Assembly (NCBI RefSeq): GCF_014268455.2 | Contig: NZ_CP077085.1 | Location: 3,203,001 to 3,267,000, forward strand | DNA length: 64,000 bases | Source: Pseudomonas shahriarae | Lineage (GTDB): Bacteria; Pseudomonadota; Gammaproteobacteria; Pseudomonadales; Pseudomonadaceae | Direction: 5' to 3' | Position numbers and translations under genes: made by a program | Notes under the pieces: generated by a model | The model's input: only the letters and a program-made list of their open reading frames with translations | Told to the model about the DNA's origin: nothing | The model's database searches: none | In this document: piece after piece, positions 51,624 to 53,461 of the stretch | Numbering within the stretch: position 1 is the first letter of the stretch | How the letters are laid out: each line of letters opens with the position of its first letter

Positions 51624-51690
51624 CGCCACAGCCAGAATGTGTGTGGGCTTGCCTGCTACAGCGCTGCGTCAGCCACCAGTTGCTGTGACT

Positions 51691-51978
51691 GAACCACCGC
51701 CATCGCGGGCAAGCCCGCTCCCACAGGGAGAGCTCAGCGGGCAGAAAAGTATGGCTCCACCACAAACCCAATGTGGGAGCTGGCTTGCCTGCGATGGCGG
51801 TCTGTCAGCCCCCGAAAATAATGACTGAACCATCCCACTGGGGGCTCTGCGAGCAGGAAAGTATGGCCACACCACAAATCAAATGTGGGAGCTGGCTTGC
51901 CTGCGATGGCGGTCTGTCAGCCGCCGAGAATAGTGACTGAACCACCGCCATCGCGGGCAAGCCCGCTCCCACAGGGGG
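51691..51978. repeat. REP cluster with a 112-bp tandem duplication
   Basis: This 363-bp gene-free stretch (51624-51986) contains four REP units: 51691-51728, 51769-51810, 51880-51923 and 51939-51978. The outer two read CATCGCGGGCAAGCCCGCTC, the inner two GTGGGAGCTGGCTTGCCTGC in the opposite sense. Units two and three lie in an imperfect tandem repeat with a 112-bp period. The last unit lies eight bases after the ilvA stop codon. Confidence 0.85.
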
Positions 51979-51986
51979 CGACTTTG

Positions 51987-53009
51987 CTAAAGCTCGGCAA
52001 CTTCCACATTCAATCGGTGCTCTCGCGCCGCCACCCGCTCGGCCACGTGGCGCAAACTGTCGAAGTTGATATTAGCCCCGGAGTTGATCGCCACCAGTGT
52101 CTGCCCCTGGGCCCCGGTACGTGTCACGTAGCGGCGGATACCGGCCACCGCCAGGGCGCCGGAGGGTTCGGTGATGGAGCGGGTGTCGTCGTAGATCAGC
52201 TTGATCGCACTGCACAGTTCATCATTGCTGACGGTGATGACCTCATCAACATAATGACGGCAGATTTCAAAACCGTGGGCACCGATCTGCGCCACTGCGG
52301 TGCCATCGGCAAAGCTGTCCACGCTGGGCAGTATCACCCGCTCACCGGCATCCAGGGCCGCCAGCAGGCAGCTGGAGCCTTCAGGTTCCACGCCAATCAC
52401 CCGCACTTGCGGGCGCAAATACTTGATGTAGGCCGCGATGCCGGCGATCAACCCACCCCCGCCGACCGGGACGAAGATCGCGTCCAGCGCACCTTGCTGC
52501 TGGCGCAGGATTTCCATGGCGACGGTACCCTGCCCGGCGATCACGTCGGGATCGTCGAAGGGCGATACAAAGGTGCCCCCCGACTGTTCAGCCAACTGCA
52601 ATGCATGGGCCAGGGCAAACGGGAAGCTCGCGCCCTGCAACACCGCCTCAGCGCCTCGTGAGCGCACGCCCAGCACTTTCAATTCAGGCGTGGTGCTGGG
52701 CATGACTATCGTCGCCTTGATTCCCAACTCACGCGCCGCCAGCGCCACACCCTGGGCATGGTTGCCCGCCGAGGCCGTGATCACGCCGCGGGCTTTTTGC
52801 TCATCGCTCAGTTGCACCAGTTTGTTGTAGGCGCCACGGATCTTGAAGGAGAACGTCGGCTGCAGATCTTCACGCTTGAGCAGGATCTGATTGCCGAGCA
52901 GCGCCGAGAGTGCCGGGGCCGCCTGCAAGGGGGTGCGTACCGCCAGGTCGTAGACCGGCGCGGCGAGGATCTTCTTCACGTATTGCTCAAGCAGCAAGGG
53001 GCTACTCAT
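51987..53009 (-). CDS. ilvA: Short threonine dehydratase IlvA lacking the regulatory domain
   Basis: PLP enzyme of 340 residues that deaminates threonine to 2-oxobutanoate, the first step to isoleucine. Start MSSPLLLEQ has CCAGGAGACACC upstream. Lys56 in PTFSFKIRGAYNK binds PLP; SAGNHAQGVAL and PVGGGGLIAG complete the site. The protein matches biosynthetic IlvA up to SGANINFDSLRHVAERVAAREHR, then stops where E. coli IlvA (514 residues) enters its ACT-like isoleucine-binding domain. Allosteric isoleucine control by that domain is therefore absent. The gene is instead preceded by an attenuator-like leader. Confidence 0.92.
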   Translation of the reverse strand: MSSPLLLEQYVKKILAAPVYDLAVRTPLQAAPALSALLGNQILLKREDLQPTFSFKIRGAYNKLVQLSDEQKARGVITASAGNHAQGVALAARELGIKATIVMPSTTPELKVLGVRSRGAEAVLQGASFPFALAHALQLAEQSGGTFVSPFDDPDVIAGQGTVAMEILRQQQGALDAIFVPVGGGGLIAGIAAYIKYLRPQVRVIGVEPEGSSCLLAALDAGERVILPSVDSFADGTAVAQIGAHGFEICRHYVDEVITVSNDELCSAIKLIYDDTRSITEPSGALAVAGIRRYVTRTGAQGQTLVAINSGANINFDSLRHVAERVAAREHRLNVEVAEL

Positions 53010-53048
53010 GGGTGTCTCCTGGCGTTTTACGGGGCCCTGGAGACGGAA

Positions 53049-53076
53049 AAACAAAACCCGCCTCTAGGGCGGGTTT
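53049..53076 (-). terminator. Attenuator terminator upstream of ilvA
   Basis: On the minus strand AAACCCGCC and GGCGGGTTT form a 9-bp stem with a 5-base loop (CTAGA), followed by TGTTTTT. It lies 40-68 bp before the ilvA start, after the leader peptide stop. The 5' arm can instead pair with GGCGGG at 53096-53101 inside the leader, giving an antiterminator. Confidence 0.85.
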
Positions 53077-53091
53077 GGGTACAGCCGAACG

Positions 53092-53157
53092 CTATCCCGC
53101 CAAATGAGGAATGGCGGTAATAATGCTTGGCTGGGAACGATAGGTTTGAACGGTCAT
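53092..53157 (-). CDS. ilvA leader peptide (21 residues) with Ile-Ile-Thr control codons
   Basis: The reading frame ATG ACC GTT CAA ... ATT ATT ACC GCC ATT ... TAG encodes a 21-residue peptide with Ile at positions 12, 13 and 16 and Thr at 2, 5 and 14. GGCGGG, the antiterminator arm, is formed by codons 19-21. A ribosome stalled at codons 12-13 leaves it free; a ribosome reaching the stop covers it. There is no Shine-Dalgarno sequence, and the predicted transcription start coincides with the ATG. Confidence 0.75.
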   Translation of the reverse strand: MTVQTYRSQPSIITAIPHLAG

Positions 53158-53163
53158 GGCGCA

Positions 53164-53192
53164 AAACTAACCGGCGCTCTGTGGCAAGTCAA
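53164..53192 (-). promoter_or_regulatory. Putative promoter of the ilvA leader
   Basis: TTGACT (53187-53192) and TAGTTT (53164-53169) are 17 bp apart. The expected start would be about position 53157, the A of the leader ATG. Confidence 0.5.
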
Positions 53193-53210
53193 CTGCGGGG
53201 CTTTACGGGC

Positions 53211-53240
53211 GATATACGAAACATATACGCTTTGTATATC
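53211..53240. promoter_or_regulatory. Palindromic operator before the ParD-like gene
   Basis: GATATACGAAA and TTTGTATATC form an inverted repeat (7-bp perfect arms plus AAA/TTT) in an AT-rich island 21 bp before the start. It is a candidate autoregulatory site of the ribbon-helix-helix-like product. Confidence 0.5.
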
Positions 53241-53260
53241 AATCCTACACAGTGAAGCTC

Positions 53261-53461
53261 ATGGGCATCGTCAAGATCACCGATCAACTGCATGAACAAC
53301 TGCGTCTGGCCAGCGCCGCCATGGACCGCTCCATCAACGCCCAGGCGGAGTTCTGGATCAAGATCGGCCTGTTGGCCGAACTCAATCCACACCTGGCCTA
53401 CAACGATCTGATCAACAAGCTGTTGCTCGATAAGCCCGACCTGATCCGGGGGCGCAGCTGA
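53261..53461 (+). CDS. ParD-like protein
   Basis: The 66-residue protein (MGIVKITDQLHEQLRLAS...) resembles the ParD_like family (PF11903), distant relatives of ribbon-helix-helix antitoxins: an N-terminal strand VKIT followed by two helices and the conserved RSINAQAEFWIKIGLLAEL. A GTG three codons earlier is an alternative start. The stop codon overlaps the start of map by one base (TGATG), so the two are translationally coupled. There is no ParE-type toxin next to it. Confidence 0.75.
   Translation: MGIVKITDQLHEQLRLASAAMDRSINAQAEFWIKIGLLAELNPHLAYNDLINKLLLDKPDLIRGRS

Follow-up and report, generated by a model that had tools for sequence, protein, structure and literature searches.

The second ilvA gene of Pseudomonas shahriarae is very probably under ribosome-mediated transcription attenuation, with charged tRNA-Ile as the signal. 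The window analysed is a stretch of 64,000 nucleotides of contig NZ_CP077085.1, and its ilvA product is a threonine ammonia-lyase (TIGR01124 above cut-off), which places the gene in the isoleucine pathway. On sequence and comparative grounds, the element can be described as a set of attenuator arms, an ORF with Ile codons, a fixed linkage to the gene downstream and folds that are predicted to be mutually exclusive. The same stretch of DNA is already catalogued in Rfam as a small RNA.

Architecture of the leader upstream of ilvA

The first-pass annotation had described a 21-codon leader on the minus strand with ATT ATT ACC at codons 12–14 and a stop codon, a 9-bp terminator with a T-tract between this leader and ilvA, and a GGCGGG motif in leader codons 19–21 that is complementary to the CCCGCC 5′ arm of the terminator; all three were confirmed at the coordinates collected in Table 1. 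The terminator reads AAACCCGCC-CTAGA-GGCGGGTTT and is followed by TGTTTTT, a third Ile codon (ATT) is found at codon 16, and AGGAG precedes the ilvA ATG. A fourth arm, the protector strand CCGCC, had been overlooked in that first reading and completes the 1:2 / 2:3 / 3:4 plan of an attenuator.

Table 1. Features of the ilvA attenuator region in the window
Feature	Position	Strand	Basis and remarks
−35-like hexamer TTGACT of leader promoter	53187..53192	(-)	Sequence; TTGA at matching spacing in 144/146 unique leaders
−10-like hexamer TAGTTT	53164..53169	(-)	17 nt past −35; 6 nt ahead of leader ATG
Leader ORF MTVQTYRSQPSIITAIPHLAG + TAG, 21 codons	53092..53157	(-)	Probably leaderless; predicted RNA start A53157
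Tandem Ile codons 12–13, ATT ATT, proposed stall site	53119..53124	(-)	Sequence; conserved
Arm 1 CCGCCAT, protector strand, codons 14–16	53111..53117	(-)	Pairs with GGCGG; CCGCC core at 53117–53113
Arm 2 GGCGGG, codons 19–21	53096..53101	(-)	Common to helices 1:2 and 2:3
Arm 3 CCCGCC, 5′ arm of terminator	53068..53073	(-)	Alignment and hairpin scan
Intrinsic terminator hairpin, 9 bp, loop CTAGA	53054..53076	(-)	Includes arm 4 GGCGGG at 53062–53057
Rfam RF00624 ‘Pseudomonas sRNA P9’ match	53053..53127	(-)	84.3 bits, cut-off 43
ilvA, second copy, 340 aa	51987..53009	(-)	PALP domain only, without Thr_dehydrat_C

Conservation of the leader and its linkage to ilvA

The ilvA-type entries inspected numbered 92, namely the window, the 30 best-scoring matches, 40 picked from the match list and 21 further, some places being represented twice. 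In this sample, which was chosen with the Rfam P9 model, the leader and four-arm pattern fits 91 entries (85 unique sequences), the one that does not parse being L123. A pattern scan, in which the core motif is conserved by construction, added 80 named loci (at least 80 exist), all titled Pseudomonas, giving a total of 171 entries among the matches listed. Certain places are represented twice and a number of named loci duplicate the contigs of G loci; per-entry counts are therefore not independent, and unique sequences are given where possible. The gene that follows is ilvA in 167 of the 171 and a SnoaL-like gene in one (L238), with too little sequence in three; by unique sequence, ilvA comes next in 145/146 of the loci listed, two further ones being too short.

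An ATG-initiated ORF with three to five Ile codons, the translation of which is predicted, was present in all 148 unique leaders listed, a set whose loci were chosen by an Ile-containing pattern; there are three Ile codons in 76 leaders, four in 47 and five in 25. Within the same set these codons are ATT in 484 cases, ATC in 48 and ATA in nine (the window ilvA gene itself uses ATC 20 times, ATA twice and ATT once), the stop codon is TAG in 139 leaders and TGA in nine, and 12 codons come before the second Ile in 126 leaders, the other 22 having 11, 13 or 14. Five loci (L067 and L117–L120) carry a frame change that alters the final residues to WRAS or WRAC and retain GGCGGG together with a stop codon shortly after it, as is expected if the RNA and the final position of the ribosome matter rather than the peptide. 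Conservation of the Ile codons upstream of ilvA across pseudomonads had been proposed as a check on the attenuator, and in the examined loci leader ORF, Ile codons, arms and ilvA are indeed all kept.

At some loci a second small ORF of 25–39 aa lies between the terminator and ilvA, preceded by an SD-like word; 31 distinct examples were seen (L001–L011, L019, L020, L023, L025, L028, L046, L050, L075 and named loci), none of them at the window. Ile occupies position 2 in 28 of the 31 (MIII, MIAI, MISI and so on) and the stop overlaps the ilvA start (ATGA), so that a translationally coupled second leader is likely.

Mutually exclusive helices

Covariation was examined in an alignment, A1, of 57 sequences made up of 29 ilvA leaders and 28 related attenuators. 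Left out of it were loci judged by eye to be terminator-only or unrelated (L134–L136, L153–L155, L159, L160, L162, L163, L172, L174–L177 and L181), the look-alikes L133, L142, L171, L179 and L180, the divergent L157, and L178, which has an N run; the terminator rows of L122, L141 and L143 are misaligned and were scored as unpaired, so that they count against the helix. Helix 1:2 is paired in 92.1% of A1 cells with 34 double-change cells, a result that 0/500 shuffles matched, and its middle pair is G-C in 29 sequences, A-U in 23, G-U in four and unpaired in one (n=57). Helix 3:4 is paired in 96.2% of cells, its covariation likewise being reached by 0/500 shuffles, and the middle pair is G-C in 48, A-U in five (kinase leaders), G-U in one and unpaired in three. 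Helix 2:3, which is missing from the P9 model used to retrieve most of the sequences, is paired in 97.3% of cells; its shuffle control is modest, the percentage being reached by 17/500 shuffles and the covariation score by 9/500, and sliding the helix by +3 ties the covariation score with 75.4% paired. The arms are nearly invariant within ilvA leaders, so the covariation rests on the related attenuators; the compensatory changes for which the first-pass annotation had suggested looking are present once those attenuators, which lie on other genes, are included.

By position count and by folding models that assume a ribosome footprint of ~15 nt downstream, a ribosome stalled at the Ile codons would cover arm 1 and one at the leader stop would cover arm 2. 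When RNA up to arm 3 was folded with arm 1 covered, 2:3 formed in 148/148 unique leaders listed; with the ribosome placed at the stop, the 3:4 terminator formed in 148/148; and with no ribosome, 1:2 formed in 143/148, being missing from the MFE structure in the other five. The logic first put forward for this site, in which stalling would free GGCGGG and block the terminator and full translation would hide it, holds up in the comparative checks that the first-pass annotation had proposed. Once the complete terminator of the window has been transcribed, 3:4 is the MFE structure even in the stalled model, and antitermination must therefore be kinetic.

A probably leaderless start

A −35 element with TTGA and a −10-like hexamer, spaced by 16–18 nt and lying 6–9 nt ahead of the ATG, are found in 144 of the 146 unique leaders listed (L118 and L120 read TTGCG at −35). 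Positions 1, 2 and 6 of the −10 are T, A and T in 142, 144 and 144 of those 144 leaders, in a search that permitted 5–9 nt to the ATG and favoured TA...T, so that the conservation of the boxes is partly selected. A standard-consensus scan of 52950–53300 called no promoter, that of the window being sub-threshold, and hence the promoter claim rests on conservation. As the −10 of the window ends at 53164, the RNA would start 7 nt further on, at the first base of the leader ATG; judging from these features, the leader RNA is probably leaderless, with its start at or very near that ATG.

It could be argued that the attenuator works as described but that transcription begins further upstream and yields a longer RNA for leader translation, given that the window promoter has only 8/12 consensus matches and that the start site is derived from the boxes. 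Such a longer RNA is rather unlikely: an SD-like word 4–16 nt before the leader ATG is present in 0/148 unique leaders listed, as opposed to 140/148 before an ATG 25–130 nt past the terminator; the near-fixed distance of the boxes from the ATG stands beside a mean information of 0.06 bits over the stretch 110–41 nt before the −10, against 1.9–2.0 bits at the key bases of the −10 itself; and kinase- and SnoaL-linked relatives show similar spacing by eye. Leaderless translation has been reported to be rare in P. aeruginosa, with 43 likely leaderless mRNAs (PMC3272035).

Between the ilvA promoter and a divergent gene for a ParD-like antitoxin (53252–53461, PF11903), the window also contains an inverted repeat, GATATACGAAACATA/TACGCTTTGTATATC, at 53211–53240, which is perhaps the operator of the antitoxin gene.

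Related elements on other genes

Weak P9 matches, together with a second model (R1), revealed that elements with Ile-rich leaders and the same layout also stand ahead of the genes for small P-loop kinases, AAA_33 kinases, SnoaL/DUF4440 proteins and threonine dehydratases of other families. Since some of these relatives were used to build R1, the gene linkage counts as independent but their own R1 scores do not. The small P-loop kinase occurs in 14 of 194 genomes of the order (E<=1e-25), with the element directly upstream in 12 of the 14, the two kinase loci lacking it being L372 and the broken L377. P9 scored above cut-off in 23 of the 25 genomes of a sister genus, where the gene next to the match is SnoaL-like in 22 and ilvA in one (L380).

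The kinase resembles ‘DNA topology modulation protein’ (below the NCBIfam cut-off) and is spread over several families of the order (L144–L152, L156, L161, L349 and L365–L378), with leaders such as MNTNLTQKTARIIIIP. SnoaL/DUF4440-linked elements were seen at L129, L130, L132, L133, L138, L141–L143, L165, L167, L170, L171, L238, L379 and L381–L398; L238 and L379 carry ilvA-type leaders (IITAIP.MAG) on a SnoaL-like gene, and L383, in the sister genus, is apparently frame-shifted. Kinase-like loci of the AAA_33 type (PF13671; L164 was scanned) are L131, L137, L164, L166, L168, L169, L173, L179 and L180. Other families of the order also have threonine dehydratase genes (L348/L158, L355/L157 and L356) with terminators and Ile/Met-rich leaders of their own, MYRVNSSNIMMIIRTGNRLVG being one such leader. 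The L380 ilvA has a leader and an N-terminus that closely resemble those at L187, a Pseudomonas locus of class C, and would be either a recent transfer or contamination.

Neither the kinases nor the SnoaL-like proteins are known to have a role in isoleucine synthesis. On balance we lean, by a narrow measure, towards a single leaderless Ile-sensing module that has been reused across Pseudomonadales (on ilvA, P-loop kinases, AAA_33 and SnoaL/NTF2-like genes) and that would constitute a regulon for isoleucine stress (or Ile-tRNA synthetase stress) that has so far gone unrecognised, P9 being its first, misread member.

Proposed mechanism and the amino acid sensed

In the mechanism that we infer, which takes in the transcription start, the stalling of ribosomes, termination in the cell and the identity of the inducing amino acid, RNA polymerase would begin at or very close to the first base of the leader ATG, and the (nearly) leaderless RNA would then be loaded with ribosomes. 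With Ile-tRNA plentiful, the ribosome would reach the stop beside arm 2 and cover that arm, the 3:4 terminator would form and a short P9-like RNA would be released. If Ile-tRNA were short, the ribosome would stall at codons 12–13 and cover arm 1, arms 2 and 3 would pair, the terminator would fail and ilvA would be transcribed. An untranslated RNA would form 1:2 and 3:4, and transcription would stop.

Two tandem Ile codons plus one other are all that the window leader offers, which counts against this mechanism, and the Thr codons that adjoin the Ile codons would allow for threonine sensing. Codon 14 of the window is ACC, the IIT motif recurs in many relatives as well as in the parsed ilvA leaders, and IlvA consumes threonine, so that the same attenuator might respond to threonine, or to threonine and isoleucine together as the E. 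coli thr leader does. We regard this as improbable, as a stall at codon 14 alone would be past the tandem Ile codons, and most kinase-class leaders read RIIIIP with no Thr at that place (L147, KIITIA, and L149, RITITP, being the exceptions), which makes Ile the common factor. Moreover, ACC supplies two bases of arm 1, and arm pairing alone would conserve it.

The element as Rfam family P9

RF00624 is the sole Rfam match above gathering score in the window. The anti-hemB and Trp_leader families were rejected as identities (26.2 bits under a cut-off of 49.5, and 18.2 bits under a cut-off of 41, respectively). The sub-threshold resemblance of 53047–53120 to anti-hemB (E 0.00037) is an observation in its own right and raises the possibility that this RNA of Burkholderia, too, is a leader attenuator. 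The P9 consensus itself carries the leader-frame codons and stop (AUU AUU ACC GCC ... GCG GG. UAG); the Rfam entry and model differ from the present reading in having neither a leader ORF nor the 2:3 antiterminator.

Across 298 genomes of the genus, a P9 match was found in 224 at E<=1e-3 and above cut-off in 217, and 0/14 control genomes had one. In the subset of matches inspected, 8 of the 224, all weak-scoring, sit on other genes or plain terminators, weak matches of this kind having first been read as ilvA loci. The first-pass annotation knew of no description of such a regulator for this gene in Pseudomonas; the proposed function does appear to be new, but the sequence had already been catalogued. 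Our literature search found no account of attenuation before Pseudomonas ilvA or of P9 as an attenuator, although Livny 2006 or Vitreschak 2004 might hold one.

We take the RF00624 entry to file P9 as an sRNA gene of unassigned function located upstream of threonine dehydratase. That P9 is a trans-acting sRNA with its own promoter and terminator, its place before ilvA being incidental or secondary, would accord with that filing and with the finding of the family before differing genes. Released attenuator RNAs can work in trans, rnTrpL being an example (PMC7298713), and P9 is listed as one of the sRNAs whose detection in P. aeruginosa is credited to Livny et al. 2006 (PMC2375449). Nevertheless, a purely trans-acting P9 is very unlikely: the ATG ORF with its Ile codons and stop is conserved, the neighbouring gene is fixed per lineage (for ilvA, at the unique loci listed, with a single exception), the helices are mutually exclusive, and the element is absent from examined genomes having one ilvA. 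A trans role in addition to cis attenuation is compatible with these data. The detection in P. aeruginosa is the one hint from in vivo work. A SnoaL-like gene follows the element in 22/23 sister-genus genomes with a match, so the P9 RNA of P. aeruginosa need not be an ilvA leader; there is no P. aeruginosa locus among the 80 named Pseudomonas loci listed.

The leader RNA has an MFE of -39.7 kcal/mol, in a structure consisting of 1:2 plus 3:4, compared with -25.5 +/- 3.2 for dinucleotide shuffles (z -4.47; 0/200 equally stable), and a family covariance model, built with the window sequence included, gave 77.8 bits at the ilvA site in the 6.05-Mb genome and 23.0 bits (E 0.12) at the next best. 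An ordinary constitutive terminator or a chance arrangement without regulation is scarcely credible: terminators are common, a simple script finding 15 terminator-like hairpins in the window, but an upstream copy of the 3′ arm accompanies only three of these and all four arms occur solely at the hairpin before ilvA, quite apart from the conservation, co-occurrence and covariation described above.

A second ilvA copy

The P. shahriarae genome also encodes IlvA1, a protein of 504 aa that is 71% identical over residues 6–332 to the element-linked IlvA. Two ilvA genes were found in 27 of 30 genomes with the element, one in two and none in one (contig ends and N runs included). The comparison set of 28 element-free genomes (20 of the 74 without any P9 match, plus eight with weak non-ilvA matches) has a single ilvA in 27, and G169 has an extra that is 39% identical. 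No element was detected at 30 loci consisting of the 29 ilvA loci of element-free genomes and the window genome's IlvA1 (L032), the best E-value being 0.025.

The window IlvA has the PALP domain only, as does that of L182; L209 and L199 have Thr_dehydrat_C. Using heuristic leader classes and with duplicate entries included in the gene-length counts, the 84 listed entries with a window-like leader divide into 73 short closed genes, three of full length, five that run off the sequence and three that end early, and the 73 listed entries of two other leader classes into 34 of full length, 35 that run off and four that end early. On this comparison the element tracks the second ilvA copy, and in the window's clade that copy lacks the C-terminal regulatory domain, so that feedback control of the short IlvA may have given way to attenuation. 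Directly 3′ of the window ilvA, where the regulatory domain would be, there are REP-like repeats at 51638–51978 (44-nt identical copies and 101-nt copies of 90% identity).

Comparison with known attenuators and implications

The leader of the E. coli thr operon, which controls thrABC, has mixed Thr and Ile codons, whereas that of the window has a single Thr codon beside an Ile pair. In E. coli, ilvA belongs to the ilvGMEDA operon, as the operon name tells. This operon is preceded by a peptide of 32 aa with 15 branched-chain residues (PMC6123439). Like that ilvL attenuator, the Pseudomonas element combines a branched-chain leader, a terminator and an antiterminator; it differs in serving a single ilvA copy, in its 21-codon leader with three Ile codons (three to five in relatives) and in probably having no 5′ UTR. 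There is a likeness at the RNA 5′ end to Sinorhizobium meliloti, where the rnTrpL sRNA is made by attenuation and begins with the ATG of the leader ORF (PMC7298713), as is predicted for the Pseudomonas leader; trpL/rnTrpL differs in sensing Trp rather than Ile, in coming from an alphaproteobacterium and in its known trans roles.

The regulator is of a classical kind that appears sound on the comparative tests available; its novelty lies in the gene that it serves, in how P9 is now read, in the probably leaderless start and in the breadth of the family. If this is true, an Rfam ‘small RNA’ family, found in about three quarters of the genomes of the genus that were sampled, becomes a set of regulators with a testable mechanism, and the element would exemplify single-gene Ile attenuation of a duplicated ilvA. 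It would also suggest that leaderless translation serves attenuation in gammaproteobacteria, and the related elements flag the kinase and SnoaL-like genes as candidates for an isoleucine-stress response.
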